NCBI RefSeq assembly: GCF_020215705.1
Contig: NZ_JAIWNB010000002.1
Location: forward strand, 496,001-560,000
Reading direction: 5' to 3'
Length of the DNA stretch: 64,000 nucleotides
DNA from: Nonomuraea aurantiaca
GTDB lineage: Bacteria > Actinomycetota > Actinomycetes > Streptosporangiales > Streptosporangiaceae
The stretch's first letter is position 1, and every line of letters begins with the position of its first letter. Positions 8,001 through 62,249 of this stretch are shown one piece after another. A program made the position numbers and the translations under genes. The notes under the pieces are model-generated. The model was not told the DNA's origin. It did not search any database and was given only the letters and a program-made list of their open reading frames with translations.

Positions 8001-8226
8001 CGCCAGGGGGACGGAAGAGGAGAAGCGGTCCCAGCTCGACCGCCTGCACGCCTTCCACGACCGCAACCGGGCCGAGGCCCCCGTGGCACTGGCCCGGTTG
8101 CGGGACGTCGCCATGTCCGATGGCAACGCGTTCGAGGTGTTGATGGAGGCGGCCCGCGTCTGCTCGCTCGGCCAGATCACGGAGGCGCTGTTCGAGGCCG
8201 GAGGACAGTACCGGCGCAACGTCTGA
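5011..8226 (+). CDS. icmF: Fused isobutyryl-CoA mutase (B12-dependent mutase with G-protein chaperone)
   Basis: A 1071-residue protein with the IcmF order. First is an N-terminal cobalamin-binding domain (FDGHDAAIN near 18-26, with the B12-coordinating His, then ISSYQGGH). Next is a MeaB-like GTPase with P-loop GITGTGGSGKSSL near 195. Last is the methylmalonyl-CoA-mutase-type TIM barrel, from about 560 to the C-terminus. It interconverts isobutyryl-CoA and n-butyryl-CoA by adenosylcobalamin radical chemistry, and the GTPase part loads and repairs the cofactor. Length and domain order match intact family members. It is monocistronic, behind an operator-like palindrome, and its last codons begin a tandem repeat. 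Confidence 0.96.
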   Translation: MHVPANPVRFVTAAALFDGHDAAINIMRRILQSQGAEVIHLGHNRSVDEIVTAAVQEDVQGVAISSYQGGHVEFFSYLVDLLRERGAGHVKVYGGGGGVIVQDEIDLLHSRGVTRIFSPEDGQRYGLPGMINKLIEECDVELDGVPSVEAVGSGDQAALARAITLIESGRAPAGLLDGLRAGPGSGGTRAPVLGITGTGGSGKSSLTDELVHRLRVDNDDKLRVAVIAIDPTRRRGGGALLGDRIRMNSLGPQTYFRSLATRGAANEVPVCLDDVIAACRAAGYDLVIVETPGIGQGDAGIVPHVDVPIYVMTPEFGAASQLEKIDMLDFAEAVVINKYERRGAEDALRDVRRQLVRNRAAFGVAPDDMPVFGTIAARYNDAGVTALYHHLKALLADKGLRTEPGLLAPVHGRTSQVAAAIVPPARVRYLAEIAETVRDYHAETLAQAEVARRRQQLTAVQALLGADDDRLAELAAGAERELSDESRALLDDWPATREQYSADELVVKVRDREIHTPLWRETLSGNRIPRVALPRYTDHGELLRFLRSENLPGRFPYTAGVFAFKRDDEDPTRMFAGEGDPFRTNRRFKLLSEGQPATRLSTAFDSVTLYGHDPDLRPDIYGKVGTSGVSIATLDDMKVLYDGFDLTSPSTSVSMTINGPAPTILAFFLNAAIDQTLDRFEAEHGRRPYEEEERELRARTLATVRGTVQADILKEDQGQNTCIFSTEFSLRMMADIQQWFTHNSVRNFYSVSISGYHIAEAGANPISQLAFTLANGFTYVEAYLARGMRIDDFAPNLSFFFSNGMDPEYSVLGRVARRVWAVAMREKYGAAERSQKLKYHIQTSGRSLHAQEMDFNDIRTTLQALIAIYDNCNSLHTNAFDEAVTTPSADSVRRAMAIQLIINREWGLARNENPLQGSFIIDELTDLVEEAVLREFERLSDRGGVLGAMETGYQRGRIQDESMLYESRKHDGSLPIIGVNTFRNPRGDEPHQKKVELARGTEEEKRSQLDRLHAFHDRNRAEAPVALARLRDVAMSDGNAFEVLMEAARVCSLGQITEALFEAGGQYRRNV

Positions 8227-8278
8227 ACCGGCGCGACGTTCTGAAGCCGGCGCAACTGAACCGGAGCGACGTGCTGAG
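8211..8278. repeat. Four-copy degenerate tandem repeat at the icmF 3' end
   Basis: Four copies of a unit like CCGGCGCAACGTCTGAA lie at 8211-8227, 8228-8246, 8247-8260 and 8261-8278 (17, 19, 14 and 18 bp). The first contains the last icmF codons and its TGA, and the later ones again contain CTGA. The array ends exactly where the convergent gene's stop codon begins. It looks like repeated duplication of the gene tail. No strong hairpin is obvious. Confidence 0.8.
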
Positions 8279-8590
8279 TCAGCAGTACTTCGCGCCGTCG
8301 AACGTGCGGACGCCCCTGGGCACCCTGCTCCAGATGGTCCCCTTCGGGGCCACGGACTGGCAGGCGCCATCGGCGCCGTGCGCCCAGACGATCTTCATGT
8401 TCATCCAGCGGCCGCACCCGTTGTAGGCGTAACCGGTCTTTTTAACAGTGCCGGTCTTCTGCCAGAGGCTCACGCAGGACGGGACCTTGCCCAGCGTGCT
8501 GGCCTGTGCGGGCGCGGCGGCCACCAGGCCGGCGGACGCGGCTCCGGCGATGACCAGGGCGGCGACCGACTTGCGGAGGGTGATGTTCAT
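8279..8590 (-). CDS. Secreted four-cysteine protein resembling alpha-amylase inhibitor (tendamistat) family
   Basis: This 103-residue exported protein has a Sec signal peptide ending APAQA near residue 30, so the mature form is about 73 residues, the size of tendamistat. Cysteines at 39, 59, 77 and 103, with surrounding PSCVSLWQ, NGCG and GACQSVAP, follow the tendamistat pattern PSCVTLYQ, NGC and CYAVAPG; the Cys2-Cys3 spacing of 18 is identical. The Trp-Arg-Tyr triad that plugs the amylase active site is not present: that loop reads KTGTVKKTG. It may therefore share the fold but bind something else. The ATG at 8590 follows AGAGGAAC. A longer upstream reading is rejected because it would bury the signal peptide. 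Confidence 0.65.
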   Translation of the reverse strand: MNITLRKSVAALVIAGAASAGLVAAAPAQASTLGKVPSCVSLWQKTGTVKKTGYAYNGCGRWMNMKIVWAHGADGACQSVAPKGTIWSRVPRGVRTFDGAKYC

Positions 8591-8736
8591 TGTCGAGTTC
8601 CTCTCTCGATGTGCTCGATGTGCTCGATGAGAGGAAGGTAGGTCCGCGGGTGTTGAGGATCTGTTGAGGTTCTGTGCGGTCCTGTGGGCGTCTATAGGAT
8701 TGCAGGTCGGGGCATTACCGCTAACTGGAGGCATTC

Positions 8737-9237
8737 ATGGCTGACGTCACTTTCAAGGGCAACCCGATTACCGTGGGCGGCACGTTCCTCAAGCCCGGCG
8801 ACCAGGCGCCCGCGTTCCAACTGGTGGGCGGGGACCTGGCTGACACCACGCTGGCCGGTTTCGGCTCCGCGACCAAGGTGCTCAACATCTTCCCGAGTGT
8901 CGACACGGGCGTCTGCGCCGCCTCGGTGCGCCGGTTCAACGAGGTGGCCGCCGGGCACCCCGGCGTCGCGGTGCTGTGCGTCTCGGCCGACCTGCCGTTC
9001 GCGCAGAAGCGGTTCTGCGCCGCCGAGGGGCTCGACAACGTGACGATGCTGTCGCTCATGCGGGGCCGCGAGTTCCTGCGCGACTACGGCGTGGCGCAGG
9101 AGAGCGGGCCGCTTGCCGGGCTGGCCGCCCGCGCGGTGGTCGTGCTGGACGGCGACAACCGCGTCATCTACTCCGAGCTGGTGCCCGAGATCACCCAGGA
9201 GCCCGACTACGAGGGCGCGCTGAGCGCGCTCAAGTAA
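8737..9237 (+). CDS. tpx: Thiol peroxidase (Tpx, atypical 2-Cys peroxiredoxin)
   Basis: 166 residues, typical for Tpx. The peroxidatic Cys60 is in [15 protein letters not shown] and the resolving Cys94 in QKRFCAAEG, matching Cys61/Cys95 of the E. coli enzyme. The N-terminal [11 protein letters not shown] and the C-terminal [15 protein letters not shown] are diagnostic. It reduces hydrogen and alkyl peroxides in the cytoplasm using thioredoxin. It is a single gene, divergent from the secreted inhibitor-like gene and convergent with a methyltransferase, separated from the latter by a short GC hairpin. Confidence 0.97.
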
Positions 9238-9255
9238 GCCCGACCAGGCCGCGCG

Positions 9256-9270
9256 CCGGGGTCGCCCCGG
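9256..9270. terminator. Short GC hairpin between convergent genes
   Basis: CCGGGG (9256-9261) and CCCCGG (9265-9270) form a 6-bp stem with loop TCG, 19 bp past the tpx stop and just before the stop of the opposing methyltransferase. It may terminate both transcripts. There is no U-tract, as is usual in actinomycetes. Confidence 0.45.
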
Positions 9271-9274
9271 GTCT

Positions 9275-10162
9275 TCAGTTCTTCCTGCCCACCCCGCAGA
9301 GGATGAGCGACGACTCGGGGCCGGCCGCGAGGTCGATCAGGTCGGCCTCCTCGGGGCGCCACTGCGGCAGCCAGGTCAGGCCCGGCTCGACCAGCTCGAA
9401 CCCCGCCCACAACTCCTCGATCCGTCGGCGGGTACGTAGGGTCAGGGGAGCGCTGGCCCGGCGATAGACCTCGGTGCCCTTGCTGACGGCGGCGGCACGG
9501 GCGTCGCTCGTGCCGTGGGACATGACGACATAGCTGCCGGGGGCCAGGGATTCGCGGATGGCGGCCATGATGCGCAGGGGGTCGTCGGTCTCGCCGATGA
9601 AGTGCATGATCGCGACGAGGAGGACGCCCACCGGCCGGTCGAAGTCCAAGGTCCCCACCACGTCCGGATTTTTCAGGAGATCGTGGGGATCGCGGAGATC
9701 GCCGTCCACCACGGCGATCCCTTCGCTGCCCGCCAGCAGCGCCCTGGCATGGACCAGCACGACGGGGTCATGGTCGACATAGACCACCCGCGACTCCGGC
9801 GCGACCGCTCTGGCCACCTCGTGGACGTTGCCCCGCGTCGGCAGGCCCGTACCGATGTCGAGGAACTGGGTGACGCCGGCGCCGGCGAGGAAGCGTACGG
9901 CACGACCGAGGAAGGCCCGGTTGGCGCGCGCGGCGGTACGGACCTCGGGAGCCACCCGCAGCAGCCGTTCAGCGGCTCGCCGGTCGGCCGGGAAATGATC
10001 TTTCCCGCCGAGGTAGTAGTCGTACAGCCGGGCGACGTTGGGCGTGTTCGGGTCGAAGCCCAGCGATTCTCGCTCCAACCAGCGATCCCCCGATCGATAG
10101 TTAACGATCTTTCCTCGGGATTCTACGGATTTGTGACCTGCCTTGGGGCGATATTCCCGCAC
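9275..10162 (-). CDS. DUF574-type SAM-dependent methyltransferase
   Basis: This 295-residue protein has the actinomycete signature FDPNTPNVARLYDYYLGGKDHF, followed by a Rossmann methylase core (FLDIGTGLPTRGNVHEVA, VVYVDHDPVVL and the loop IMHFIGETDDP). It matches the family called Methyltransf_19/DUF574, present in many copies in actinomycetes and of unknown substrate. The start used is GTG at 10162, which lacks a clear ribosome site. An internal TTG just before LERESLGFDPN, preceded by a G-rich stretch, is a reasonable alternative and would drop about 28 residues. Confidence 0.85.
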   Translation of the reverse strand: MREYRPKAGHKSVESRGKIVNYRSGDRWLERESLGFDPNTPNVARLYDYYLGGKDHFPADRRAAERLLRVAPEVRTAARANRAFLGRAVRFLAGAGVTQFLDIGTGLPTRGNVHEVARAVAPESRVVYVDHDPVVLVHARALLAGSEGIAVVDGDLRDPHDLLKNPDVVGTLDFDRPVGVLLVAIMHFIGETDDPLRIMAAIRESLAPGSYVVMSHGTSDARAAAVSKGTEVYRRASAPLTLRTRRRIEELWAGFELVEPGLTWLPQWRPEEADLIDLAAGPESSLILCGVGRKN

Positions 10163-10222
10163 GCTGGGCGTTACTTGCCTTTAGTCCCTTTTGTCGTTCG
10201 AGTGGCGGTCTAAGGTGCGAGT

Positions 10223-10972
10223 GTGAGCCTCGACGACACCGGTGTACCCGTCCCCGTTCCCTCGAACGTCCGGCGGATCGTGTCGCTGGTGCCCTCACTC
10301 ACCGAGTCCGTGGCCGCGACCCTCCCCGAGGCGCTGGTCGGCGCGACCGACTGGTGCTCGCACCCGGCGGACCTGGACGTGGCCAGGGTGCGGGGGACCA
10401 AGAACCCCGACCTCGACGCCATCCGGCGGCTCGCCCCCGACGTGGTGCTCGCCAACGCCGAGGAGAACCGCCAGCCGGACGTCGACGCGTTGCGGGAGGC
10501 GGGCATCGCGGTGTGGGTCACCAGGATCGAGACGGTGGAGGAGGCGTTCAGGTCGCTCGACCGGATGTTCCGGTACGCCTGCCGGACCGGGCGGCCCGGC
10601 TGGCTCGACCGGGCGGAGTCGGTGTGGGCCGAGCCCATGGAGGTGCGCCGGATGGCGATCATCCCGATCTGGCGGCGGCCGTGGATGGTGGTGGGACGCG
10701 ACACGTTCACCGGCGACGTGCTCGCCCGGCTCGGGGTGGGCAACCTCTACGCCGGTCATGCCGAGCGCTACCCCAAGATCGCGCTGGCCGAGCTGGTGGC
10801 GCGGGGCGCCGACCTGGTGGTCCTGCCCGATGAGCCCTACGCGTTCAGCGCCGAGGACGGGCCGGAGTCGTTCCCCGGCCACCGGTGCGCGCTGGTGAGT
10901 GGACGCGATCTGACCTGGTACGGCCCCTCTCTCGTCCAGGCGCGCGACCGCCTCGTCCGCAGCCTGGCCTGA
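10223..10972 (+). CDS. Cytosolic BtuF-like periplasmic-binding-fold protein (helical backbone metal receptor)
   Basis: 249 residues with the BtuF/FecB-type fold: VRRIVSLVPSLTESVAAT, the conserved GTKNPDLDAIRRLAPDVVLANAEEN, and a second lobe with GADLVVLPDEPY. Family members bind cobalamin or siderophores for ABC importers, but this one has neither signal peptide nor lipobox and no transporter genes beside it. It probably acts in the cytoplasm, possibly in cobamide or metal handling; the function is not known. The downstream 17-bp tandem duplication starts 11 bp after the stop. Confidence 0.75.
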   Translation: MSLDDTGVPVPVPSNVRRIVSLVPSLTESVAATLPEALVGATDWCSHPADLDVARVRGTKNPDLDAIRRLAPDVVLANAEENRQPDVDALREAGIAVWVTRIETVEEAFRSLDRMFRYACRTGRPGWLDRAESVWAEPMEVRRMAIIPIWRRPWMVVGRDTFTGDVLARLGVGNLYAGHAERYPKIALAELVARGADLVVLPDEPYAFSAEDGPESFPGHRCALVSGRDLTWYGPSLVQARDRLVRSLA

Positions 10973-10983
10973 CAGAAGCCGGA

Positions 10984-11017
10984 CCCACGGACGGCCGGGG
11001 CCCACGGACGGCCGGGC
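10984..11017. repeat. Tandem duplication of a 17-bp unit after a stop codon
   Basis: CCCACGGACGGCCGGGG (10984-11000) is followed at once by CCCACGGACGGCCGGGC (11001-11017), 16 of 17 identical. It fills most of the 59-bp gap between two convergent genes. Confidence 0.85.
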
Positions 11018-11031
11018 TGACCTGCGGCGCG

Positions 11032-12192
11032 TCACACGACGTTCGTGGTCGGGGGACTGGCGAGGGCGGCGTCCACGGCGGCGGGGGACAGCACGTGGTC
11101 GATGACGAGCACCGCGGTCCCCACGATCCCCGCGCGGTCGCCCAGCGAGCTCGTCACGATCTCCAGGTTGCGGGTGGTGAACGGCAGGCTGCGGCGGTAC
11201 ACGCTCTCCCTGATGCCCGTCAGGTAGTGCTCCCCGGTCTCCGCCATGTCGCCCGCCAGCACCAGGACGGCGGGGTTGAGCAGGCTGACCGCGGTGGCGA
11301 GGACGATGCCGACCGTGCGGCCGGCCTCCTGGGTGAGGGCGATGGCCGTCGGGTCGCCGGCCTGGACCAGGCGTACGACCTCGCGGCTGTTCTGCCTGCC
11401 GAGGTCGGAGGCGAGGGCGTGGCCGCTGGCCAGCGATGCGACGCACCCCCGGGAGCCGCAGGTGCAGACGCGGTCGTCGCTCTCGCGCAGGCGGACGTGG
11501 CCGATGTTCCCGGCGGCGTCCTCGACGCCGCGGTAGATCCGGCCGTCCAGGACGATGCCGGTGCCGATGCCCGTGGAGACCTTGATGAGGATCAGCGACC
11601 GGCTGCGCCGCCAGGAGGACCACCACTCGCCGAAGGCCATCGCGTTGGCGTCGTTCTCGACCAGGACCGGCACGTCGAACGCCTCCCGCAGCCCCTGGCC
11701 GATCGGGTGGTCGTCCCAGCCGGGCATGAGGAACGACCTGATCACCCGGCCGGAGGCGTGGTCGACCGAGCCCGGCAGGTCCAGGCCGATGCCGCACACC
11801 TGGTCCGACGGCCGTCCCGAGCGGTCGAGCAGGCGCTGGAACGCCCGCCGTACCCAGGACAGGACGACCTTGGGGCCGCGGTCGATGCGGATCTCGGAGT
11901 GCTCCTCGACCAGCGGCCGGGCCGCGAGGTCGGTCAGCGCCACCCGCGCGTGGCCGGCGCCCAGGTCGGCCACCAGCACCACGCGGTTCGTCGCGTCGAT
12001 GTCGAGCACCGAGGGCGGGCGCCCGCCCCCGGAGATGCCGACGCCGGACTCGTGGATGTATCCCGCCTCGATCAGCCGGTCCACCCGTTCGGTGATCGTC
12101 GATCGGGACAGCCCGGTGTACGCGATGAGTTCCTTGCGGGTACGGCAGGTGCCATTGCGGATCAGCTGGAGGATCTGCCCCGCCGTCAGCAT
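11032..12192 (-). CDS. ROK-family transcriptional regulator of the adjacent sugar locus
   Basis: 386 residues. An N-terminal winged helix (LTAGQILQLIRNGTCRTRKELIAYTGLSRSTITERVDRL, in pieces) precedes a ROK sugar-kinase-like domain. That domain has an LVADLGAGHARVAL phosphate loop, LVENDANAMAFGE, STGIGTGIVLDG and the zinc motif CTCGSRGC. It is likely a repressor released by a sugar or sugar derivative. It starts 3 bp after the permease stop and so is the last gene of the ABC operon, implying autoregulation. Candidate operators lie in the divergent control region at 15307-15624. Confidence 0.93.
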   Translation of the reverse strand: MLTAGQILQLIRNGTCRTRKELIAYTGLSRSTITERVDRLIEAGYIHESGVGISGGGRPPSVLDIDATNRVVLVADLGAGHARVALTDLAARPLVEEHSEIRIDRGPKVVLSWVRRAFQRLLDRSGRPSDQVCGIGLDLPGSVDHASGRVIRSFLMPGWDDHPIGQGLREAFDVPVLVENDANAMAFGEWWSSWRRSRSLILIKVSTGIGTGIVLDGRIYRGVEDAAGNIGHVRLRESDDRVCTCGSRGCVASLASGHALASDLGRQNSREVVRLVQAGDPTAIALTQEAGRTVGIVLATAVSLLNPAVLVLAGDMAETGEHYLTGIRESVYRRSLPFTTRNLEIVTSSLGDRAGIVGTAVLVIDHVLSPAAVDAALASPPTTNVV

Positions 12193-12195
12193 GGT

Positions 12196-25442: not shown

Positions 25443-26354
25443 ATGGAGCTGGTGACGATTGATGACATCCGGGACGCGGCTCAGCGCATCAAGCCGGTCG
25501 CGGTGCGGACCCCGCTGGTGCCCATGGGGGAGGTCTGGGTCAAGCCGGAGAGCCTGCAGCGGGTCGGGTCGTTCAAGATCCGTGGTGCCTACAACGCCGT
25601 CGCGTCGCTGCGGCCCGACGGGGTCGTCACCCACTCCTCCGGCAATCACGGCCAGGCGCTGGCGTACGCGGCCAAGCAGTTCGGAGTGCCGTGCGTCGTC
25701 GTGGTGCCCGAGGGGACGCCCGAGGTCAAGGCGGCGGCGATCAAGGGGCACGGCGCCGAGCTGGTCGTCGTACCGCCCGAGCAGCGGATCGTCGCGGCCC
25801 TCAAGCTGGCCGAGGAGCGGGAGCTCACCATGGTCCCGCCGTACGACCATCCGGCGGTGATCGCCGGGCAGGGCACCATCGGGCTGGAGATCGTCGCGGA
25901 CCTGCCCGACGTCGAGGTGGTGGTGGTGCCGGTCAGCGGCGGCGGGCTCGCCTCGGGCATCGCCGCGGCCGTCAAGGCGCTGCGGCCGGAGGCGACCGTG
26001 CTGGGCGTCGAACCCGAGCTCGCCGCCGACGCGGCCGAGAGCCTGGCGGCCGGCCGCGTGGTGTCCTGGGAGCCGGCCCGGACCTTCCGTACGATCGCCG
26101 ACGGGTTGCGGGCCGATCTGTCGGAGCTGACGTTCGCGCACCTGCGGGAGCACCTCGACGGCATCGTCACCGTGTCGGAGGACGAGATCCGCCACGCCAT
26201 GGGCGACCTGGCCCGCTCGGCCCGCCTGGTGGCCGAGCCGAGCGGGGCGGTCACGACGGCGGCCTACCTGTCGGGCCGCGTCCCCGAGGGCCGGACGGTC
26301 CTGGTGCTGTCCGGCGGCAACGTCAACCCGGACCTGTTGCGCCAGGTGATCTAG
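25443..26354 (+). CDS. PLP-dependent threonine/serine dehydratase or racemase
   Basis: 303 residues, fold-type II PLP enzyme. The Schiff-base Lys is in VGSFKIRGAYNA, the substrate loop is SSGNHGQALAYAA, the phosphate loop VSGGGLASG, and the pyridine-N Ser sits in SGGNVNPDLL. There is no C-terminal ACT domain, so it is the short catabolic or racemase-like type, not allosteric IlvA. It deaminates Thr/Ser to 2-oxo acids, or racemises Ser. The TAG stop lies in the first unit of a duplicated 31-bp block. Confidence 0.9.
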   Translation: MELVTIDDIRDAAQRIKPVAVRTPLVPMGEVWVKPESLQRVGSFKIRGAYNAVASLRPDGVVTHSSGNHGQALAYAAKQFGVPCVVVVPEGTPEVKAAAIKGHGAELVVVPPEQRIVAALKLAEERELTMVPPYDHPAVIAGQGTIGLEIVADLPDVEVVVVPVSGGGLASGIAAAVKALRPEATVLGVEPELAADAAESLAAGRVVSWEPARTFRTIADGLRADLSELTFAHLREHLDGIVTVSEDEIRHAMGDLARSARLVAEPSGAVTTAAYLSGRVPEGRTVLVLSGGNVNPDLLRQVI

Positions 26355-26413
26355 GAGTCCACTCGTGGCGGGCGAGGTCGTCTAGGAAGTCCACTCATGG
26401 CGGGCGAGGAACG
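26351..26413. repeat. Tandem duplication (period 31) at the junction of convergent genes
   Basis: Unit one (26351-26381) and unit two (26382-26413) share the core TCCACTCGTGGCGGGCGAGG against TCCACTCATGGCGGGCGAGG. Unit one contains the dehydratase stop TAG. Unit two contains the stop and last codons (RHEWTS) of the opposing gene, so the tail of that gene has been copied past its end. Confidence 0.85.
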
Positions 26414-32557: not shown

Positions 32558-34751
32558 GCCGGTCTCGACCTATCGGGTCCAGCTGACGCCCGACTTCGGG
32601 TTCGCCCAGGTGGGGAAGATCGCCGCGTATCTGCGGGATCTGGGGGTCAGCCATGTGTACCTGTCGCCGATCCTGCAAGCGACGCCCGGCTCGCTGCACG
32701 GCTACGACGTCACGGACCACTCCCGGATCAGGGCCGAGTTCGGCGGCGCCAAGGGGTTTCGCGAGATGGCCGAGCAGCTGGCCGCACAGGATCTCGGCAT
32801 CGTCCTAGACATCGTGCCCAACCACATGAACACGACCAACGCCCAGCTCTGGTCCGTACTCGCCGAAGGGTCCGCCTCCCCGTACGCCGCCTGGTTCGAC
32901 ATCGACTGGGACGGCGGGAAGGTGGCGCTGCCGGTGCTCGGCGACGGCGTCGAGCCGGTGGTCGACGGCGACGTGCTGCGCTACCACGAGCACGTGTTCC
33001 CCCACCCCGGGCACTACCGGCTGGTCGACTGGCGTCAGGGGCCGGGCTACCGGCGCTTCTTCGACGTGTCGACGCTGATCGGGCTGCGGGTCGAGGACCC
33101 GGCGGTGCTCTTCGCCACGCACGAGGTGATCTTCTGGCTGCTCGACGAGGGCCTGGTCGACGGGCTGCGCGTCGACCATCCGGACGGGCTGGCCGATCCG
33201 CGCGGCTACCTCGAACACCTGCGCGCCAGGTCCGGCGGCGCCTGGACGGTCGTGGAGAAGATCCTGATCGGCGACGAGCGGCTGCCCGAGGACTGGGACT
33301 GCGAGGGCACCACCGGCTACGAGGTGCTGAACCGGGTCAACGGCCTGTTCGTCGACCCGGCCGGTGAGGCGCCGCTGGTCGAGCTGTTCACCCGGCTCAC
33401 CGGCCTGCCCGGCGATTTCCGGCCGGTGGTGGCGGAGGCCAAGCGCGAGGTCATCGAGCTGTTCTTCGGCGCCGAGGTGCGCCGGCTGGCCCGCGCCGCC
33501 GGGTGCCCGCCGTCCGCCGTCGCCGAGCTGCTCGCGGCGATGCCGGTGTACCGGGCGTACGTGGTGCCGGGCGAGCCGCCGCCCCCCGCATCGGTGGAGA
33601 TCGTCGAGCGCGCCGCCGACGCGTGCTCACCCGCCGTGCAACCGTTCGTCCAGCAGGTCCTGTACGGTCCGGCCGACGTGATCACGCGTTTCCAGCAGAC
33701 CTGCGGGCCGGTGATGGCCAAGGGGGTCGAGGACACGGCGCTGTACCGGTGGTTCCCCCTGGCGTGTCTGAACGAGGTCGGCGGCGATCCGGACCTGTTC
33801 GGCGTCTCCGTGACGGACTTCCACGCGTTCTGCCGTGATCTGCGGCCGTACACGATGACCACGCTGTCCACGCACGACACCAAGCGGTCGGAGGACGTAC
33901 GCGCCCGGCTGTCCGTACTGTCGGAACTGCCCAGTGAGTGGGCGGACGCGGTGGCGGAATGGTCGGCGGCGGTGAGCTTCGATCCGCGGCTCGACTACCT
34001 GGCCTGGCAGAACCTGATGGCGGCCTGGCCGATCTCCGCCGAACGGTTCGCCGAATACCTGCTCAAGGCGGCGCGGGAGGCGAAGACCTCCATCTCCTGG
34101 ATAAATCCGGACCCGGGGTACGAACAGCGGCTTCGCGACTTCGCGGCCGCGGCCGTGAAGCTGCCGGTGGGCGAGTTCACCGAGCGCATCGACGCCTTCG
34201 CCATGGCCAACTCGCTCGGGGCCAAGCTCGTCCAGCTGATGATGCCGGGGGTGCCGGACGTCTACCAGGGCAATGAGATGACCGATTTCTCGCTGGTCGA
34301 CCCGGACAACCGGCGGCCGGTGGCGTTCGGGCGGTCGCCGGTGTCGCGCTGGGACGCGGCCAAGCTCGCGGTGACGACCCAGGCGCTGCGGCTGCGCCGC
34401 CGGCTCGATCCTGCGGCACCGTACACACCGCTCCTGGCGGAAGGGGAGGCGGCGGAGCACGCGATCGCCTTCGCCCGCGGTGACGACCCGCCGCGCGCGG
34501 TCGCGGTCGCCACGCGGCTGCCCGTCCGCCTCGCCCGCCGCGCCTCTGGAGTACGGACCGCGGACGCGCAGACCCCGGATGTACGGGCTGGGGAGCGGGA
34601 GATGCGCCTCGGCTGGGGCGGCACCACGCTGACCCTCCCGACCGGCACCTGGCGCGAACTGCTGACCGGCGGCGTCTACACCGGCCGCGTTCCCCTCGCT
34701 CACCTGCTCGCCCGATACCCCGTCGCGCTGCTGGAGAGACATGATCTTTGA
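32550..34751 (+). CDS. treY: Maltooligosyltrehalose synthase
   Basis: 733 residues. VSTYRVQLTPDFGFAQVGKIAAYLRDLGVSHVYLSP (in pieces) is the TreY N-terminus. GH13 regions are DIVPNHM, GLRVDHPDGLADP and WTVVEKIL, with the late motif MAKGVEDTALYRW and ending near PDVYQGNEMTDFSLVDPDNRRPV. It converts the reducing-end alpha-1,4 bond of maltodextrins to alpha,alpha-1,1. The GTG start lies inside the glgX end. A loop near residues 665-690 (GVRTADAQTPDVRAGEREM) looks like extra repeated sequence. Confidence 0.95.
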   Translation: MSRPVSTYRVQLTPDFGFAQVGKIAAYLRDLGVSHVYLSPILQATPGSLHGYDVTDHSRIRAEFGGAKGFREMAEQLAAQDLGIVLDIVPNHMNTTNAQLWSVLAEGSASPYAAWFDIDWDGGKVALPVLGDGVEPVVDGDVLRYHEHVFPHPGHYRLVDWRQGPGYRRFFDVSTLIGLRVEDPAVLFATHEVIFWLLDEGLVDGLRVDHPDGLADPRGYLEHLRARSGGAWTVVEKILIGDERLPEDWDCEGTTGYEVLNRVNGLFVDPAGEAPLVELFTRLTGLPGDFRPVVAEAKREVIELFFGAEVRRLARAAGCPPSAVAELLAAMPVYRAYVVPGEPPPPASVEIVERAADACSPAVQPFVQQVLYGPADVITRFQQTCGPVMAKGVEDTALYRWFPLACLNEVGGDPDLFGVSVTDFHAFCRDLRPYTMTTLSTHDTKRSEDVRARLSVLSELPSEWADAVAEWSAAVSFDPRLDYLAWQNLMAAWPISAERFAEYLLKAAREAKTSISWINPDPGYEQRLRDFAAAAVKLPVGEFTERIDAFAMANSLGAKLVQLMMPGVPDVYQGNEMTDFSLVDPDNRRPVAFGRSPVSRWDAAKLAVTTQALRLRRRLDPAAPYTPLLAEGEAAEHAIAFARGDDPPRAVAVATRLPVRLARRASGVRTADAQTPDVRAGEREMRLGWGGTTLTLPTGTWRELLTGGVYTGRVPLAHLLARYPVALLERHDL

Positions 34752-36492
34752 GGTGTGGGCTCCGAATGCCACGACCGTGGAGGTCGACCTGGACGGCGTC
34801 CTCGACGGACGCCGCGCGATGACCGCCGGTGAGGGCGGCTGGTGGGCGGCCGATCTACCCGAGGCCGGGCATGGGACCCGTTACCGGTACGTACTCGACG
34901 GCGAAGGCCCCTACCCCGACCCCCGCTCCCGCCGCCAGCCCGATGGCGTCTTCGGGCCCAGCGCCGTCTACGACCACGCGCGCTACACGTGGGCCGACCA
35001 CGAGTGGACCGGCCGTGACCTGCGCGGCTCGGTGATCTACGAGCTGCACATCGGCACCTTCACCCAGGCCGGCACGTTCGAGGCGGCCATCGAGAAGCTG
35101 CCGCATCTCGTCGAGCTGTGCGTGGACTTCGTGGAGGTCATGCCGGTGGCCCCGGTGCCCGGGGGGCGCAACTGGGGCTATGACGGGGTGGACCTGTACG
35201 CGGTCAACGAGACGTACGGCGGCCCCGACGGGCTCAAGTCGTTCGTCGACGCCTGCCATCGCGCCGGCATCGGCGTGCTGCTCGACGTCGTCTACAACCA
35301 CCTGGGGCCGTCGGGCAACTTCCTGCACCCCTTCGGGCCCTACTTCGCCGGATTCACCGGGAGCTACTGGGGCGAGGCGGTCAATCTCGACGGGCCGGGA
35401 TCCGACGAGGTACGCCGCTACTTCATCGAGAACGCCCTGCAGTGGCTGCGCGACTATCACATCGACGGCCTGCGGCTCGACGCCGTGCACGCGCTGCACG
35501 ACAAGCGCGCCACGCACCTGCTGGCCGAGCTGTCGGACCAGGTGGACGCGCTGTCCTGCGCGGTGGGCAGGCCGCTGTCGCTCATCGCCGAATCCGACCT
35601 CAACGACCCGTCCATGGTCCGCTCCCTCGACGCGGGCGGGCTGGGAATGACCGCGCAGTGGGACGACGACGTCCACCACGCGCTGCACTGCGCGGTGAGC
35701 GGCGAGAGCCACGGCTACTACGCCGACTTCACCGACCTGTCCTCGCTGGCCAAGGCGCTGACCCGGGGTGTCGTACACGATGGCGGCTGGTCGAGCTTCC
35801 GCGGCCGTACGCATGGGGCGCCGTTCGCCGGGGTGCCCGGCCACCGGCTCGTCGCCTGCCTGCAGAACCACGACCAGATCGGCAACCGGCCGCTGGGCGA
35901 CCGGCTGCCCGTCTCCGCGCTCAAACTCGGCGCCGGGCTGCTGCTGACCTCGCCGTTCACCCCGATGCTGTTCATGGGGGAGGAGTGGGGGGCCGGCACG
36001 CCGTTCCTGTTCTTCTCCGACCACGTCGACCCGCAGTTGCGGGAGAGCGAAGGCGGGCGCAGGGAGCAGGAGTTCGACGGCTTCGGATACGCCTGGGACG
36101 CTCCCGACCCGTCGCGTGAGGAGACGTTCCTGCGCTCCAAGCTCGACTGGGACGAGGTGAAACAGGAGGTCCACTGGTCGCTGCTCTGCTGGTACCGCGA
36201 CCTGATCGCCCTGCGCAAGGCGCTGCCCGAGCTGTCCGACCCGCATTTCGGCAGCGTCCGGGTGGAGTTCGATCCGGACGGGAAGTGGCTGGTGATGTGG
36301 CGGGGCTCGGTCTGCGTCACGGTCAACTTCGGTGCGGACTCGGTGACGTTGCCGGTGTCGGTGGGGGCGGCTCTGCTGGCGTCTGATGAGCCGGTCGCCG
36401 GGGGTGGAGATGGGGTTTGGCTGCCTGGGCAGAGCATGGCGATCTTCAGGTCTCCCAGTGGCCAGAAGAGTGGATCTGGATCACCTGCCTGA
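34741..36492 (+). CDS. treZ: Maltooligosyltrehalose trehalohydrolase
   Basis: 583 residues. N-terminal FEVWAPNATTVEVDLDG (CBM48-like), GH13 regions DVVYNHLGPSG, GLRLDAVHALHD, LIAESDLND and QNHDQIGNR, and LFMGEEWGAGTPFLFF. It releases trehalose from maltooligosyltrehalose, completing the glycogen-to-trehalose route with GlgX and TreY. GGAGAG precedes the ATG. The last nine codons (KSGSGSPA and stop) form the start of a six-copy 35-bp tandem repeat, so the C-terminus is probably a few residues longer than ancestral. Confidence 0.95.
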   Translation: MIFEVWAPNATTVEVDLDGVLDGRRAMTAGEGGWWAADLPEAGHGTRYRYVLDGEGPYPDPRSRRQPDGVFGPSAVYDHARYTWADHEWTGRDLRGSVIYELHIGTFTQAGTFEAAIEKLPHLVELCVDFVEVMPVAPVPGGRNWGYDGVDLYAVNETYGGPDGLKSFVDACHRAGIGVLLDVVYNHLGPSGNFLHPFGPYFAGFTGSYWGEAVNLDGPGSDEVRRYFIENALQWLRDYHIDGLRLDAVHALHDKRATHLLAELSDQVDALSCAVGRPLSLIAESDLNDPSMVRSLDAGGLGMTAQWDDDVHHALHCAVSGESHGYYADFTDLSSLAKALTRGVVHDGGWSSFRGRTHGAPFAGVPGHRLVACLQNHDQIGNRPLGDRLPVSALKLGAGLLLTSPFTPMLFMGEEWGAGTPFLFFSDHVDPQLRESEGGRREQEFDGFGYAWDAPDPSREETFLRSKLDWDEVKQEVHWSLLCWYRDLIALRKALPELSDPHFGSVRVEFDPDGKWLVMWRGSVCVTVNFGADSVTLPVSVGAALLASDEPVAGGGDGVWLPGQSMAIFRSPSGQKSGSGSPA

Positions 36493-36671
36493 CCATCCTG
36501 AAGAGCGGATCTGGATCACTCGGCTGGGCCTTCAGAGGAGTGGGGGTGGGCCACCTGACTGGCCCTTCAGGGGGCGGGTGTGGGTCACCCGTCTTGGTTT
36601 TCGGCGGCGGGCCTGGGTCGCTCGTCTGCACCTCCAGAGGAGCGGACTTGGATCATCGTTCTGAACATCGC
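36466..36671. repeat. Six-copy 33-35-bp tandem repeat across the treZ stop codon
   Basis: Imperfect copies at 36466-36500, 36501-36535, 36536-36570, 36571-36604, 36605-36637 and 36638-36671. Each starts near AAGAGYGGATCTGGATCAC or a diverged form and ends near CTTCAG or CTCCAG. The treZ TGA is inside copy one. The remaining 372-bp gap to the next gene (36493-36864) holds, beyond the array, only the ribosome site CCGGAGG before 36865. Copies read in another frame give RIWITRLGLQR and RVWVTRLGFRR. Confidence 0.85.
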
Positions 36672-36864: not shown

Positions 36865-38391
36865 ATGAAGATCACTCTCCCCCTGCCTGCCCGTCTGACG
36901 TCCCACTTCGTCATCCCCGTCGAGCGCATCCCTTTCGACATCGAGTCGTTCGTGCCATGGCGGGTCGGCAGGCCGTACAGACGGGCGGTGAGCGCGGCCC
37001 TGGGCAGCCCGCTCCTGACCATCACCCATCACCGCTCCCCCTGGAGACCGGCCGGTGTCACGCTCGCGATCGAGGAGCGCCACCTGCTCCGCCGAGCCCA
37101 GCAGCACGTCGTGGTCTCCTCGACAGCACCTCCGCACGCGCTGCCCACCAGCATCCAGGTGGCCCGCGCGGCGGCGCGCGCGGTGGCGCAGGAGTGCGAG
37201 GGGCTGGTCATAGATCCGCTGACCGGCATCACACTGCTCACCTGCGATCGACACACCGACACCCCGACCACTCCCTCGCCCCAACACGGCTTCAGCGGCT
37301 TCCAACCGACATCTGGTCCGGCGCCTGGGCGGACCTCTAATCCGGTGCACGGGCCGGTAGCTGGTTCGATGCCCGGGCGAGTAGCCGACCCGACCTCTAG
37401 TCCAACCTCTGGCCCGACCCCCGGTCCGGCGCCTGGGCGGGTGGCGGGCCCGACCTCTGGCCAGGTGTCTGGTCCGGTGTCCGGATCGGCCTCTGGGCCG
37501 CTCCCCGAATCGGTCTCTAGGCTGGTATCTGGGCCGGTGTCCGAGCCGGTAGCCGGACCGACGCCCGGCTCGGTATCCAGGTCGGTGTCCGGACCGATCT
37601 CTGGATCGGCGTCCGGGTCGGTCTCTGAGTTGGCATCTGGGCCGGTATCCAGGTCGGCCTATAGGTCGCTGTCCGGATCGGCTTTCGGGTCCGTCGTCGG
37701 CGGACCGGGGTCCCGGGCGGTCGGTGGTCGGCGAGGAGACGACCCGGCTGCCTTTCCGGCAATCGGCGAGTCGCCCGTGTTCCGGCTGGCCGACGACTGG
37801 CTGGGCTGGGACGTGCAGGTGCACGGGGACGCCACCTGCCCGCCGTGGGATCCGGCTGACACCGGCGCCTGCGACTGTCTGCGCGTCACCTCCCGGGGAC
37901 TGCGTCGCTTCGCCCTGCCCGAGATCACCTTGGACGGCGCAGCCTGCGCCCACAGCCTGTGCGCCACGAGTCTGCTCCGCAGAGTGGCACACCACCTCGT
38001 CACCGATCACCTGGCCTTCGTCGCGACCCACCCGGACGCCACCGAGCGCTCGATCGACGACCACGTACAAATAGCGACCTCAGCCGGGCACGGCGGCTCG
38101 CCATTCACCGTCCACCTCACCCCCTGCGACACCGACCCGACCAGCCACGGCCGCATCGGCCGCATCGGCCGGCTCAAGGTCGCCCCGGTTCCAGGCGCGG
38201 GCCAGGTCGCCTACCTCAGGGCCGACCCACCCCCTGGCACAGGCCAGGTCACCCACCTCAAGGTGGGCCCACCGTCGACCTTCGTCGGCTCCCTCAACGA
38301 CTGGCTGTGCGCCACCCACCGCACCGCCCACGACATGCCGGCCGTCATCGGCTGCGATCTGACAGACCCGTCCCCAGCTCTCGTGGCATAA
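36865..38391 (+). CDS. Unrecognised protein with a long Ser-Gly-Pro low-complexity insert
   Basis: 508 residues. I do not recognise a family. Residues 1-145 and about 280-508 look globular. The N-part has PVERIPFDIESFVPWRVG and ARAAARAVAQECEGLVIDPLTG; the C-part has LADDWLGWDVQVHGDATCPPWD, several Cys, and HHLVTDHLAFVATHPDA. Between them lies a low-complexity stretch of SGPV/SGSA/PGSV-like four-residue motifs encoded by about 12-bp repeats. There is no signal peptide or membrane helix. The gene has a clear GGAGG site, and its 3' end is copied twice downstream. The next gene (38656) probably belongs to the same transcript. Confidence 0.7.
   Translation: MKITLPLPARLTSHFVIPVERIPFDIESFVPWRVGRPYRRAVSAALGSPLLTITHHRSPWRPAGVTLAIEERHLLRRAQQHVVVSSTAPPHALPTSIQVARAAARAVAQECEGLVIDPLTGITLLTCDRHTDTPTTPSPQHGFSGFQPTSGPAPGRTSNPVHGPVAGSMPGRVADPTSSPTSGPTPGPAPGRVAGPTSGQVSGPVSGSASGPLPESVSRLVSGPVSEPVAGPTPGSVSRSVSGPISGSASGSVSELASGPVSRSAYRSLSGSAFGSVVGGPGSRAVGGRRGDDPAAFPAIGESPVFRLADDWLGWDVQVHGDATCPPWDPADTGACDCLRVTSRGLRRFALPEITLDGAACAHSLCATSLLRRVAHHLVTDHLAFVATHPDATERSIDDHVQIATSAGHGGSPFTVHLTPCDTDPTSHGRIGRIGRLKVAPVPGAGQVAYLRADPPPGTGQVTHLKVGPPSTFVGSLNDWLCATHRTAHDMPAVIGCDLTDPSPALVA
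37315..37690 (+). repeat. Low-complexity coding repeats inside the unknown gene
   Basis: Degenerate 12-bp units of the type TCTGGGCCGGTA / TCCGGATCGGCC recur without frame shift, encoding Ser-Gly-Pro-Val and Ser-Gly-Ser-Ala motifs over about 125 residues. Units keep the reading frame, so the expansion is tolerated as a flexible linker. Confidence 0.75.
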
Positions 38392-38655
38392 ACCGGCCCA
38401 CACCTCTCAGGAGGAACCCCGGCATGCGACGTGTCGGCCGTCACCGGCGGCGACCAGACGGACTCGTCCCCACCCTGTGGTGTGGCATAAACCGGCCCAC
38501 AGGAACCCCGGCATGCGACGTGTGGGCGGTTATCAGCAGTGACCAGATGGACCCGACTCTCAGCCCCTGGCTGTGTGAACCGGCCCACACCCCAACCGGC
38601 CCACACCCAACCGGCTCACACCCCAACCGGCCCACACCCCCAGGAGGAACCCCAT
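38332..38655. repeat. Duplicated gene 3' ends (about 90 bp) followed by 16-bp repeats
   Basis: Three diverged copies begin with GAC at 38332, 38428 and 38517. Copy A is the real end of the preceding gene (DMPAVIGCDLTDPSPALVA, stop). Copies B (DVSAVTGGDQTDSSPPCGVA, stop) and C (DVWAVISSDQMDPTLSPWL) are its duplicates. Each carries CCGGCCCACA, and GGAACCCC follows. After C come four units of AACCGGCCCACACCCC, then the real AGGAGGAACCCC ribosome site of the next gene. Confidence 0.85.
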
Positions 38656-41811: not shown

Positions 41812-42047
41812 TCGCGCCGCACCCGAGTTGGTCGCCGTGCCGCACGGGGATGGGCGTGACGTCGACATGGTGCCGTCCCCGGATGGGCGCCACCCCGCCG
41901 TGGACCCGCGCGGAGGTGGGTGCGGCTCAGTCGTGGGCGGGTGTGGAGCGGGGTGCGGCTCCGGCGTGGTGCCGGACGGAGACCGGCGCCGGCTGTACGG
42001 CCTGCGCGCTCGTCGACCGCACCAGCCGGTGGCAGGTGATGACGTGA
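41808..42047 (+). CDS. 79-residue ORF made of 11-residue tandem repeats
   Basis: GTG at 41808 overlaps the ATPase stop (GTGA) and its TGA at 42045-42047 overlaps the permease start (GTGA at 42044). Between them the frame encodes five 11-residue units: CRTGMGVTSTW, CRPRMGATPPW, TRAEVGAAQSW, AGVERGAAPAW, CRTETGAGCTA. No known family comes to mind. The perfect coupling on both sides argues it can be translated. Alternatively it is a repeat expansion that split an original GTGA junction and happens to stay open. Confidence 0.5.
   Translation: MIAPHPSWSPCRTGMGVTSTWCRPRMGATPPWTRAEVGAAQSWAGVERGAAPAWCRTETGAGCTACALVDRTSRWQVMT
41838..42002. repeat. Five-copy 33-bp tandem repeat between ATPase and permease genes
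   Basis: Units at 41838-41870, 41871-41903, 41904-41936, 41937-41969 and 41970-42002, each exactly 33 bp. The first four end in TGG, mostly CGTGG. The period is a multiple of three, which keeps one frame open. Confidence 0.85.
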
Positions 42048-42865
42048 GGCACGCGGTGAAGGTCATGCGGGCCGAGGCGCTCAAGCAGCATCGCCAGATC
42101 TTCGGCAGCAAGCTGGTCCTGTTCTCGATGCTGGTTTGGCCGTTGCTGAAGCTCGCAGAGACCTACTACACGCTCCGGCCGCTGGCCGCGACGCCGGGCA
42201 TCGCCGAACGCTGGCCGCTCGCCGCCGATCCGGAGCGGCTGCTCGCCTTCCTGGCCACGGGCGCGCTCGGGTTCACGTTCTTCTTCTCGCTGGTGCAGTC
42301 GGCCTGGCACTTCTCCTTCGAGCGCCAGACCGGCACGCTGGAGCTCCTCTTCCTGTCACCCGCGAACCGGCTGGTCGTGGTCATCGCCAACGGGTTCGCC
42401 GCGCTGGTGCAGAACGCCTGGCTGTTCGCCTGTTTCGCGGTGGCCATGTTCACGCTGCTGGACGTGGTGAACGTGGCCCACCCCGCCATGTACGCGGTGG
42501 TCTTCCTGGCCATGCTGGTGCCCGCGGTCGCGTGGGGCGCGTTCCTGAACAGCCTGCTGATCTTCTCCAGGGACGCCGCCTTCCTCTACACGCTGCTGGA
42601 CGATCCGATGTGGTTCGCCAGCGGGGTGCGGCTGCCGGTGTTCGCGCTGCCCGGCTGGATCCGGGCCGTCGGCTCGGTGCTCCCGCTCACCGGCAGCCTG
42701 GCGGTCGTACGTGGTGCGCTGCTCGACGGGCAGGGCCTCGGCGACCTGGCCGGAGAGCTGGCGGGGCTGGCCGTACTGTCCGGAGCCCTGCTGCTCGCGG
42801 CGGTCGTCGCGCTCCGGCTGGGAGAGGCACGAGCCCAGCGAACCGGCCAGCTACGCCTCTTCTGA
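42044..42865 (+). CDS. ABC-2 type transporter permease
   Basis: 273 residues with six membrane helices: SKLVLFSMLVWPLLKLAETYY, LATGALGFTFFFSLVQSAWHFSFERQTGTLELLFLSPAN (in pieces) and LVVVIANGFAALVQNAWLF. It is the second membrane subunit of the exporter whose first permease and ATPase are damaged upstream. So it is orphaned unless another ATPase substitutes. GTG at 42044 follows AGGTGA; ATG at 42065 is possible. Confidence 0.85.
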   Translation: MRHAVKVMRAEALKQHRQIFGSKLVLFSMLVWPLLKLAETYYTLRPLAATPGIAERWPLAADPERLLAFLATGALGFTFFFSLVQSAWHFSFERQTGTLELLFLSPANRLVVVIANGFAALVQNAWLFACFAVAMFTLLDVVNVAHPAMYAVVFLAMLVPAVAWGAFLNSLLIFSRDAAFLYTLLDDPMWFASGVRLPVFALPGWIRAVGSVLPLTGSLAVVRGALLDGQGLGDLAGELAGLAVLSGALLLAAVVALRLGEARAQRTGQLRLF

Positions 42866-54286: not shown

Positions 54287-54296
54287 GCTCAGCGAA

Positions 54297-56564: not shown

Positions 56565-58286
<1,722 letters not shown>

Positions 58287-60182: not shown

Positions 60183-60252
60183 CGGATCTCATCCCTTCGA
60201 GCTGCTTCCCGCAAAAGAGTATCCTTTGCCGGGCTAGGAATCGGAGGTCTCG

Positions 60253-62100
60253 GTGAGCACTGAGCTGGAGAGCACTAGGCGAGCGCTGCGTGAGGCGATC
60301 GCCCAGGCCGAGCACGCGGCCGAGCTGGCCAGGCTGCTGGACGCGGCCCAGGCGCGGCTCGTGGAGGCCGAGCACCACGCCGCTGAGGCCAAGGCGCTCG
60401 CCGAGCGGCTCACCGACGCGGAGGAGCGGCTGGAGAGCGAGCGCGCCGCCGCGGAGAAGCTCCGCAAGGAGCTGGCCGAGCAGCGCTTCCAGGCCGAGGT
60501 GGCCAACTGGAAGCTCTCCTCGATCAAGGTGGCCCGCTGGAACCGGCTCGGCGACGCGATCAGGAGCGGAAAGAGCAACCCGGTCCGCCTGGCCAGAGGT
60601 CTCAAGGGCGCCGCCAAGCCGGTCAAACGACCCACCGCGCCCAAGCGCAAGCCGGTCGCCGCCGCGGCTCAGGGCAAGGACGAGCGGCCGGGCGCCGCCT
60701 ACCAGGCCACCACATCGGTGCGTACGCTCAACGGCGCCTCGTTCAAGCTCAAGCCGTTCCGCGTGCCCACCGGGCCCAACACCCGCCCGCACATCACCGC
60801 CGCGGTGATCGCCGACCCGCACACCGAGGCGCTGCTGCGCTATGAGTGGCGGCAGACGACCGGCTTCACGCCGCGCGACTTCGCCAGGGTGCTGCCGCTG
60901 GAGGTGCCGCACCTGCTCGTGGTCGAGTCGGTCACCCAGGGTCCGTGGGCCGAGGAGATCACCGGCGAGCCGGGCGAGGGGCTCAAGGCCCTGCTGGCCT
61001 GGTGCGCCGAGCGGGGCATCCGCACGGTGTTCTGGCACACGCAGGGCGACGTGGCCCCCTACACGGCCGCCGCCGAGCTGTTCGAGCACCGCTTCACCAA
61101 CGACCTCACCGTGGGCTGGCCGCGCCTGCACTTCGGGGTGCAGCCTCGGGTGCACAACCCGATCCCGCTCTCGGGCGGCCGCATCGACCGGGTGCTCACG
61201 CTGGACCAGCTGCTGCCCGAGCACCTGAGCTACCCCGACGTGCTGACCTCCTACCGCTGGCCCGCCGCCGTCGACTGCCCGCCCGGCACCCCGCAGTGGG
61301 TGCTGGCCGAGCTCGCGGCCTGCAACACCTCGATCGGCACCGAGCCCGACGCGCGCCGCGCGCACGTGGCCCTGCGCCGCGCCCACGCCACCGGCACGAT
61401 GTCCGAGCGGACCGACGAGCTGCTGGAGGCCGTCGGCCTGCCCGCCGTACGCGCCACGCTCAACGTCTCGGTGCTGCTGCCCGTGCCCGACTCGGCGCTG
61501 CTGGAGCACGCGCTGGCCCAGGTGGCCAGGCAGTCGGGGGTCACGCAGGTGGTGGTGTTCGCCTGGCGCGGGGCCGAGCAGCGCGTCCGCGAGGTCCTGA
61601 CGGGCGTCGACGTGGTCTTCCGCGACCTCGACCCGGCCGCCAGCACGGGCGCCATGCTCGACCACGGTCTCGACCTGTGCGAGGCCGACCTGGTCGCGGT
61701 GATGGACCCGCGCGACGTCTACGGCGCCCACTATCTGACCGACCTGCGCAGGGCGTTCCTGTTCAGCACGGCCGACATCGTCGGCAAGGCCGCCTTCTAC
61801 GCCCACCTCCGCAAGCCGCAGGCGACACTGCTCAAGCAGCCGGACGCCGAATACTCCTACCTGCCGGAGATCGCCGGCGCCACGCTGCTGGCCCGCCGCA
61901 ACACGCTCCGCGAGCTCGGCTTCGCCGACCTCACCGATGGGTGGGACGAGGTGCTGATGCGGCAGTGCCGGACGGACGGGATCAAGGTGTTCTCGGCAGA
62001 CCGGTTCGGTTATGTGCGGGTACGCGAGGAGGACCGGTGGCTGCTGGGGGCCGCCCAACTGGTCGAGTACGGCTCGGCCGAGCCGCACGCGCTCATCTAG
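60253..62100 (+). CDS. Coiled-coil glycosyltransferase-like protein
   Basis: 615 residues. Residues 1-85 form a coiled coil (RRALREAIAQAEHAAELARLL, EERLESERAAAEKLRKELAEQ), followed by a basic linker. The middle has a CgeB/spore-protein-like region (EVPHLLVVESVTQGPWAEEI, IRTVFWHTQGDVAPYT). The C-terminal ~200 residues resemble a GT-A glycosyltransferase (VSVLLPVPDSALLEHALAQVARQSG, LVAVMDPRDVYGAHYLTDL, DGWDEVLMRQ). The product may be a cell-surface polymer, teichoic- or capsule-like; this is inference. GTG follows CGGAGG. A 56-59-bp repeat starts just after the stop. Confidence 0.75.
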   Translation: MSTELESTRRALREAIAQAEHAAELARLLDAAQARLVEAEHHAAEAKALAERLTDAEERLESERAAAEKLRKELAEQRFQAEVANWKLSSIKVARWNRLGDAIRSGKSNPVRLARGLKGAAKPVKRPTAPKRKPVAAAAQGKDERPGAAYQATTSVRTLNGASFKLKPFRVPTGPNTRPHITAAVIADPHTEALLRYEWRQTTGFTPRDFARVLPLEVPHLLVVESVTQGPWAEEITGEPGEGLKALLAWCAERGIRTVFWHTQGDVAPYTAAAELFEHRFTNDLTVGWPRLHFGVQPRVHNPIPLSGGRIDRVLTLDQLLPEHLSYPDVLTSYRWPAAVDCPPGTPQWVLAELAACNTSIGTEPDARRAHVALRRAHATGTMSERTDELLEAVGLPAVRATLNVSVLLPVPDSALLEHALAQVARQSGVTQVVVFAWRGAEQRVREVLTGVDVVFRDLDPAASTGAMLDHGLDLCEADLVAVMDPRDVYGAHYLTDLRRAFLFSTADIVGKAAFYAHLRKPQATLLKQPDAEYSYLPEIAGATLLARRNTLRELGFADLTDGWDEVLMRQCRTDGIKVFSADRFGYVRVREEDRWLLGAAQLVEYGSAEPHALI

Positions 62101-62106
62101 CGCGGT

Positions 62107-62249
62107 GTGTCCACTCCTCCGAAGGGACCCCGCCTTCTTCTGCTCCCCGGAGGGGTGTCCCTCTCGAGGAACGTCAGCCACGACGGGCCGTCGTCTTCCG
62201 CTCCCCCGGAGGGGGTATCTCCCCGAGCGACGTCAGCCATGACAGACCG
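62107..62249. repeat. Repeat of about 56-59 bp after the glycosyltransferase stop, spanning the next start codon
   Basis: Two clear units (62135-62190 and 62191-62249) plus a partial one (62107-62134). Both contain a CTCCCCGGAGGGG-type hairpin and CGTCAGCCAYGACRGRCCG. In the second unit that last block is the start-codon region (ATG) of the DALR gene; in the first it reads ACG. So the translation-initiation region has been duplicated. Confidence 0.8.

Follow-up and report, generated by a model that had tools for sequence, protein, structure and literature searches.

Short tandem arrays in a Nonomuraea genome concentrate at gene 3′ ends. The 64-kb window analysed here (G000:C45:496001–560000) comes from an 11.85-Mb, 132-contig draft; G000 denotes this source genome, and the other G labels denote the further Nonomuraea genomes compared. 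The window holds seven arrays, A1–A7, reported from its sequence as starting near stop codons. Short tandem duplications of local DNA have been gained in G000, and their ends lie at short direct repeats more often than expected by chance. The best explanation, and one that we regard as probable, is tandem duplication at short microhomologies, with the products surviving mainly at 3′ ends.

Distribution of arrays around genes

Arrays were counted with Tandem Repeats Finder (TRF) at a score of at least 50 in a 1.44-Mb sample of the genome (620 kb of C45 and 820 kb of C1). Genes were called by our own simple codon-based finder, which truncates some starts, and the main gap classes comprise gaps of at most 400 bp. 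Convergent gaps contain 31 arrays in 15.9 kb (1956/Mb), tandem gaps contain 39 (745/Mb), and divergent gaps contain 6 in 30.5 kb (196/Mb), whereas ten shuffles of the gaps with their 40-nt flanks yield means of 0.4, 0.9, and 0.2 arrays, respectively. Intergenic or boundary-crossing arrays amount to 616 per Mb of gap, compared with 192/Mb for coding arrays. Around stops, the two 50-bp bins directly downstream hold 62 and 48 arrays and the other ten hold 7–17; ahead of starts, the corresponding two bins contain 20 and 22. Overall, 110 arrays are found within 100 bp past a stop and 42 within 100 bp ahead of a start, in a count that scores an array between convergent stops twice and may score a tandem-gap array for both. 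The convergent gaps are robust in these comparisons because stops are independent of start choice. Gap classes, shuffles, and stop-proximal bins agree with the predicted 3′ concentration, and against the possibility that arrays are equally common in genes or near starts, the 3′ excess stands for the 1.44 Mb sampled, a part of the genome. The same class order is observed in 400 kb of N. jabiensis (9, 6, and 3 arrays in 3.9, 11.9, and 8.5 kb of convergent, tandem, and divergent gaps) and in 400 kb of G034 (4, 6, and 1 in 2.0, 10.6, and 8.3 kb). G034 is the closest relative among the genus genomes searched, with protein identities of 93–96%, and Nonomuraea jabiensis DSM 45507 is the nearest named record for the icmF-like gene of the window (89%).

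The bias is also visible in a test that does not use TRF, in which the sequence of each gap was matched to the end of the gene flanking it and to the ends of 100 others. At a cut of z>4, the gap resembles the local 3′ end at 25 of 682 ends (12/268 convergent, 13/414 tandem) and the local 5′ end at 4 of 766 (4/414 tandem, 0/352 divergent; Fisher p=1.5e-5), with 1/682 and 1/766 in the inverted controls. At p<=0.01, the counts are 46/682 for 3′ ends and 20/766 for 5′ ends, with 9 and 7 when inverted.

Array periods depend on location. The period is divisible by 3 in 132 of 136 coding arrays, compared with 38 of 70 intergenic and 13 of 31 boundary-crossing arrays; perfect two-copy duplications give 33/33 in genes and 16/36 outside. 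It thus seems that duplications occur without regard to frame and are then filtered. In G000, 19 of the 39 tandem-gap arrays and 3 of the 6 divergent-gap arrays could be coding extensions, and because these two classes include such candidates, the convergent class is the clean one. Across three genomes, the period is a multiple of 3 in 10 of 43 convergent arrays, 14 of 20 tandem arrays that are possible N-terminal extensions, and 11 of 29 other tandem arrays. At their ends, 49% of the 69 perfect two-copy duplications share homology of at least 4 bp, compared with 5.2% of 3000 random breakpoints; the 49% is an upper estimate, as some duplications hold part of a third copy.

The seven arrays of the window

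All seven reported repeats are real, and two of them (36466–36671 and 41838–42002) are very degenerate (Table 1). TRF detects five, and a repeat finder and lag tests, which compare self-matching at a fixed lag with 1000 mononucleotide shuffles, cover the remainder. Head-to-tail copies of units longer than about 10 bp, beyond chance according to TRF, the repeat finder, and the shuffles, mark them as tandem repeats of the minisatellite type and possibly as variable-number tandem repeats (VNTRs); with one genome per species compared, their presence varies between species.

Table 1. Arrays of the window, their detection, and the corresponding sites in relatives
Feature	Coordinates	Strand	Description	Detection	Site in relatives
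A1	8207..8278	+	about four degenerate 15–19 bp copies (counted by eye) of the last codons and stop of the icmF-like gene (5011–8226)	TRF 8210–8256, period 17, x2.6	one copy of the icmF gene end in G034
A2	10984..11017	+	17-bp x1.9 repeat between convergent genes, 11 bp past stop of 10223–10972	TRF 10984–11016, 17 x1.9, 100% match	junction 59 bp in G000, 6 bp in N. jabiensis; left gene non-adjacent in G034
A3	26350..26409	+	32-bp x1.9 repeat across both convergent stops (gene ends 26354, 26382)	TRF 32 x1.9, 93% match	junction 27 bp in G000, 4 bp in G034; compact by eye in N. jabiensis too
A4	36466..36671	+	degenerate 35-bp periodicity at/after stop of 34741–36492	repeat finder, copies 60–72% alike; under TRF threshold; lag-35 self-match 0.550, reached by 0/1000 shuffles	within a 329-bp stretch whose G034 counterpart is 50 bp
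A5	38316..38655	+	96- and 89-bp units, then 16-bp x4 array	16-bp part: TRF 38578–38640, x4; larger unit 38316–38590: repeat finder, three 55-nt blocks at spacings 96 and 89	single compact gene end, TAA, GGAGG, ATG in G034
A6	41838..42002	+	degenerate 33-bp periodicity, possibly in frame with downstream gene 42056–42865	missed by TRF (under threshold) and repeat finder; lag-33 self-match 0.591, reached by 0/1000 shuffles	G034 has most of the 33-bp periodicity, minus one 33-bp unit
A7	62107..62281	+	dispersed-element copy; two ~57–59 bp units, conserved end ~62281	TRF 62136–62251, 59 x2	junction 186 bp in G000, 21 bp in G034, 22 bp in N. jabiensis
Coding-array counterpart	37520..37649	+	24-bp x5.4 within open frame 36865–38391	TRF, 66% match	

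In line with the original prediction, several units, among them those of A1, A3, and A5, reproduce the local gene end together with its stop codon. The A5 units contain the gene end, TAA, a ribosome-site-like GGAGG or GGA, and ATG; in its blocks, GTGGCATAAACCGGCCCACA is exact in two and matched at 75% in the third. A6 is connected with its downstream gene by an open frame (41828–42865) and may be coding. The frame that holds the coding array has no Pfam match. In the G034 counterpart of 37900–38300, a 42-bp x5.6 array is present, the same gene in G000 having just two such units; at this locus a different part is expanded in each species. Nothing in the window scores above the Rfam 15 gathering threshold.

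The units had been described as unrelated to one another and therefore not one mobile repeat. They are unrelated within the window, but the repeat at 62107–62249 belongs to a dispersed family, with 52 BLAST matches in its own genome and, for a covariance model built from 24 copies, 96 matches at E<=0.001, some places holding two. By BLAST the copies match the window copy at 72–88%, a level of likeness seen although G034 lacks the element. The model has no match in 36 of 38 other Nonomuraea genomes; weak matches are found in G027, with two at 34 and 33 bits, and in G044, with a single one at 26.8 bits, and BLAST gives single short matches in G035 and G037. Of 41 places examined (18 from model matches and 23 loci), 29 were kept, with 8 loci excluded for lack of an exact core match, 2 at edges, and 2 inside called genes. 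The placed copies comprise 18 convergent, 7 tandem, and 4 divergent ones (p=1e-7 for convergent placement relative to the convergent share of intergenic bases), and in 13 of the 18 convergent copies the conserved end, which is partly palindromic, lies 0–12 bp away from the stop codon of the gene on the opposite strand. The A7 family thus gives the impression of a dispersed element that has multiplied in one of the species sampled. An origin from a known RNA family, plasmid, or phage was rejected, as the Rfam, plasmid, and phage collections searched gave no match; with Rfam 15, five A7 loci have no match above the gathering score and one sub-threshold match outside the element. Among plasmid records, NZ_LT559118.1 (Nonomuraea gerenzanensis, 11.85 Mb) is filed as a plasmid, and its size suggests a chromosome.

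Turnover and recurrence at orthologous junctions

Comparisons between species indicate that the repeat unit is local junction sequence and that the arrays are mostly lineage-specific. Among 190 gene pairs adjacent in both G000 and G034, an array is present only in G000 at 14, only in G034 at 7, and in both at 3; the 86 gene pairs common to G000 and N. jabiensis give 8, 3, and 0, respectively. Ten of the 21 arrays confined to G000 or G034 stand opposite a junction of at most 30 bp in the other species, and other opposite junctions are long (e.g. 964 bp in both species). At junction 348224, a 4-nt stop-start overlap in G000 corresponds to three 32-bp copies of the overlap in G034. Duplication-like indels between these two genomes are few: 5 in 21 convergent pairs, 14 in 137 tandem pairs, and 1 in 32 divergent pairs; four of the 14 come from one junction and two from A7. 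The junction at G000:C45:593664–593820, upstream of a gene that resembles thrB, is hypervariable: its length is 157 bp in G000 and 33 bp in N. jabiensis, and in G034 it reaches 774 bp and contains four TRF arrays.

Two orthologous gene ends have been struck independently in other species, with different units drawn from the same stop region, in agreement with the original prediction. The 3′ end of the icmF-like gene was read in 13 of 15 genomes, the other two giving no anchor. G000 carries a 17-bp array, and G046 has three 31-bp units that also contain the gene end and stop; no such unit was seen in the other eleven readable genomes, several of which have a different downstream neighbour. In G006, G008, G021, and G040, matches to the icmF-like protein fall into two or three distinct segments, which may reflect split genes, insertions, or low similarity between the segments. 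The second gene end belongs to a 530-residue gene (C45:589268–590860), which ends in a 28-bp x2.5 array in G000 and in a 4-nt overlap in G034. In ten further genomes, TRF arrays are found in two, G027 (13-bp x5) and G002 (22-bp x5), both containing the end of this gene, and the 3′ end appears degenerate by eye in G043 and G036. Four 3′ ends in this survey were unanchored and some others were anchored in the wrong frame; the TRF runs on 20 raw stretches are independent of anchoring.

At the 5′ junction of the same gene (G000:C45:589185–589267), arrays occur at an ATGA gene overlap in four species, with periods of 30 bp (x2.9) in G000 and 15, 21, and 24 bp in three of ten others (G036, G030, and G043). 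A reading of C45:589185 as an 83-bp spacer in G000 was dropped, the frame from the ATGA overlap being open through the array. All four arrays lie in an open frame to the conserved protein start, and the G000 array is probably an N-terminal extension, with the caveat that at ~70% GC open frames are common and all 11 genomes checked are open here. The seven arrays had been treated as one phenomenon, which does not hold: A7 is set apart as a dispersed element, and some arrays at tandem junctions probably represent in-frame extensions of protein N termini.

Explanations and relation to known repeats

In the favoured explanation, slipped-strand or template-switch copying across short microhomologies would generate duplications chromosome-wide, and selection would then determine which persist. 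At a 3′ end, the upstream copy would preserve frame and stop while extra copies occupy unused space, so that any period could survive; inside genes, nearly all survivors would be multiples of 3, and in promoter gaps most duplications would be lost. New arrays would seed more slippage and decay by substitution. A7 would be separate, a dispersed element residing mostly in the same permissive junctions. The predicted process acting on gene ends is borne out as to 3′ concentration, but a termination-linked process is not required, since survival where harmless explains most of it. Loops of 15–60 nt are beyond the reach of ordinary mismatch repair. MutS_V has no match in the G000 genome (it is found in 11 of 14 named genomes used as a control) and NucS has one; NucS repair is described in the cited passage as unable to correct indels (PMC8228993).

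Several observations weigh against survival as the full account. In the comparison of G000 with G034, from which 14 of 240 orthologous genes were excluded for length or identity, divergent gaps are 0.872 identical, fourfold sites 0.855, and convergent gaps 0.899. Divergent gaps are near-neutral by substitution yet hold a tenth of the convergent arrays per Mb, and because their identity is close to that of fourfold sites, general sequence constraint leaves the few divergent arrays unexplained. The class contrast shrinks when gaps of all lengths are counted, to 44, 56, and 24 convergent, tandem, and divergent arrays (1234, 569, and 351 per Mb). Among lineage-specific arrays, the 15 that are length-supported have copies 84.8% identical (506/597), a lower value than recent copying would predict; arrays lost by the sister lineage may account for some of this, as may A7-type arrays and coding extensions within the set. 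Finally, in small neighbourhoods of one gene from other taxa, counts within 100 bp past stops and ahead of starts reveal no 3′ bias in Streptomycetaceae (10/11), Nocardia (1/1), or the Nocardioides group (1/1), all small samples; the corresponding counts are 15/0 in Proteobacteria, 6/2 in Pseudonocardiales, 4/0 in Thermomonosporaceae, and 5/2 in other Streptosporangiaceae.

A rival that we consider unlikely is that gene ends are true hotspots at which termination, read-through, or head-on transcription would raise duplication, possibly by error-prone copying. Consistent with it, convergent gaps have the highest array density, with 31 arrays in 15.9 kb compared with 6 in 30.5 kb of divergent gap, though divergent gaps diverge faster by substitution, copies differ beyond expectation for their age, and the same gene ends are struck repeatedly across the genus. 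The frame pattern, however, indicates strong selection on duplications, and other indels of at least 9 bp are likewise rarer per kb in divergent than in convergent gaps (3.2 vs 11.3), though not per junction (0.75 vs 0.95); selection against insertions therefore explains part of the contrast. In its most specific form, held still more tentatively, transcription-linked error-prone copying would duplicate the stop region, with substitutions already present in the new copies. If true, this would explain lineage-specific copies as divergent as fourfold sites are between species, the independent strikes with different units, and the sparing of near-neutral divergent gaps, and it would constitute a birth process for VNTR arrays and for arrays like the mycobacterial interspersed repetitive units (MIRUs) at gene junctions.

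Selection favouring repeats past stops, where they could act for instance as bidirectional terminators or as insulators of transcription, appears improbable. Enrichment between convergent genes and the conserved, partly palindromic A7 end near stops are in its favour, but arrays come and go between close species (14, 7, and 3 among the 190 pairs), the units are arbitrary local sequence, and one of the 12 pairs in the A7 consensus fold covaries. Membership of all arrays in one MIRU-like mobile interspersed repeat holds for A7 and is otherwise very improbable. Within the 1.44 Mb, 113 of 125 intergenic arrays have no dispersed relative, nor do A1, A2, A3, and A5 (all detected by TRF), and the same holds for 26 of 26 and 17 of 17 arrays in 400-kb stretches of two relatives; units match the local gene end, which refutes this origin for A1, A3, and A5, and the A5 region has one match only in the whole genome. 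An artefact of chance, gene calling, or draft assembly is hardly credible: some starts are truncated and the genome is a draft, but shuffle controls are near zero, the single-contig N. jabiensis genome has the same class order, stops and thus convergent gaps are insensitive to start choice, and units differ by substitutions, unlike assembly duplicates.

Junction repeats serve bacterial strain typing, yet they are seldom caught arising. This one genus displays the state before duplication, separate origins at the same gene end, and subsequent decay next to one another, so that survival filtering and a true hotspot can be told apart by what each predicts. The process also shifts gene junctions and probably lengthens proteins at the N terminus in frame, with a bearing on operon coupling and annotation.

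Among known repeats, those of the repetitive extragenic palindromic and bacterial interspersed mosaic element (REP/BIME) type share with A7 a dispersed, extragenic, partly palindromic character and frequent placement at gene 3′ ends, and differ from it in sequence and unit length. MIRUs, described as 40–100 bp tandem units at stop/start junctions (PMC12548453, PMC2734929) and as mobile, inserting at start codons (PMC12548453), resemble A7 in unit size, copy number, and dispersal. Placement of MIRUs is characterised by start codons or stop-start overlaps with a coupled small ORF, and A7, with 18 of 29 placed copies in convergent gaps, may differ from them in this; it probably differs in sequence too. 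A1–A5 differ from mobile MIRUs in being local duplications. Similar to the Nonomuraea arrays, the constant-length tandem repeats of Bacillus form many species-specific noncoding arrays with unrelated units, but their unit is reported as fixed at 20–21 or 52 nt (PMC8161180), whereas strong Nonomuraea intergenic arrays span periods of 4 to 104 bp.

The nearest case is the rnc-fpg1 VNTR (ETR-F/VNTR3239) of the Mycobacterium tuberculosis complex: beginning 40 bp past a stop and reaching up to 358 bp, it occupies a junction that measures 1–54 bp in the other mycobacteria listed (PMC2734929). In both systems a species-specific array fills a junction that is short in relatives. rnc-fpg1 is one locus, whereas in Nonomuraea many junctions are affected, with convergent bias and recurrence at the same gene end. 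Copying of the unit from the local gene end is not stated in the rnc-fpg1 passage, and Nonomuraea units are often the adjacent gene end. Apart from the cases cited, the titles and opening lines of abstracts searched contain no earlier report of stop-proximal tandem duplication, and the passages on rnc-fpg1 and MIRUs mention no adjacent-gene-end units, independent recurrence, or convergent bias. As far as these sources describe their systems, the Nonomuraea arrays are akin to VNTRs and MIRU-like repeats and are set apart by units taken from the adjacent gene end, by their convergent bias, and by independent recurrence.

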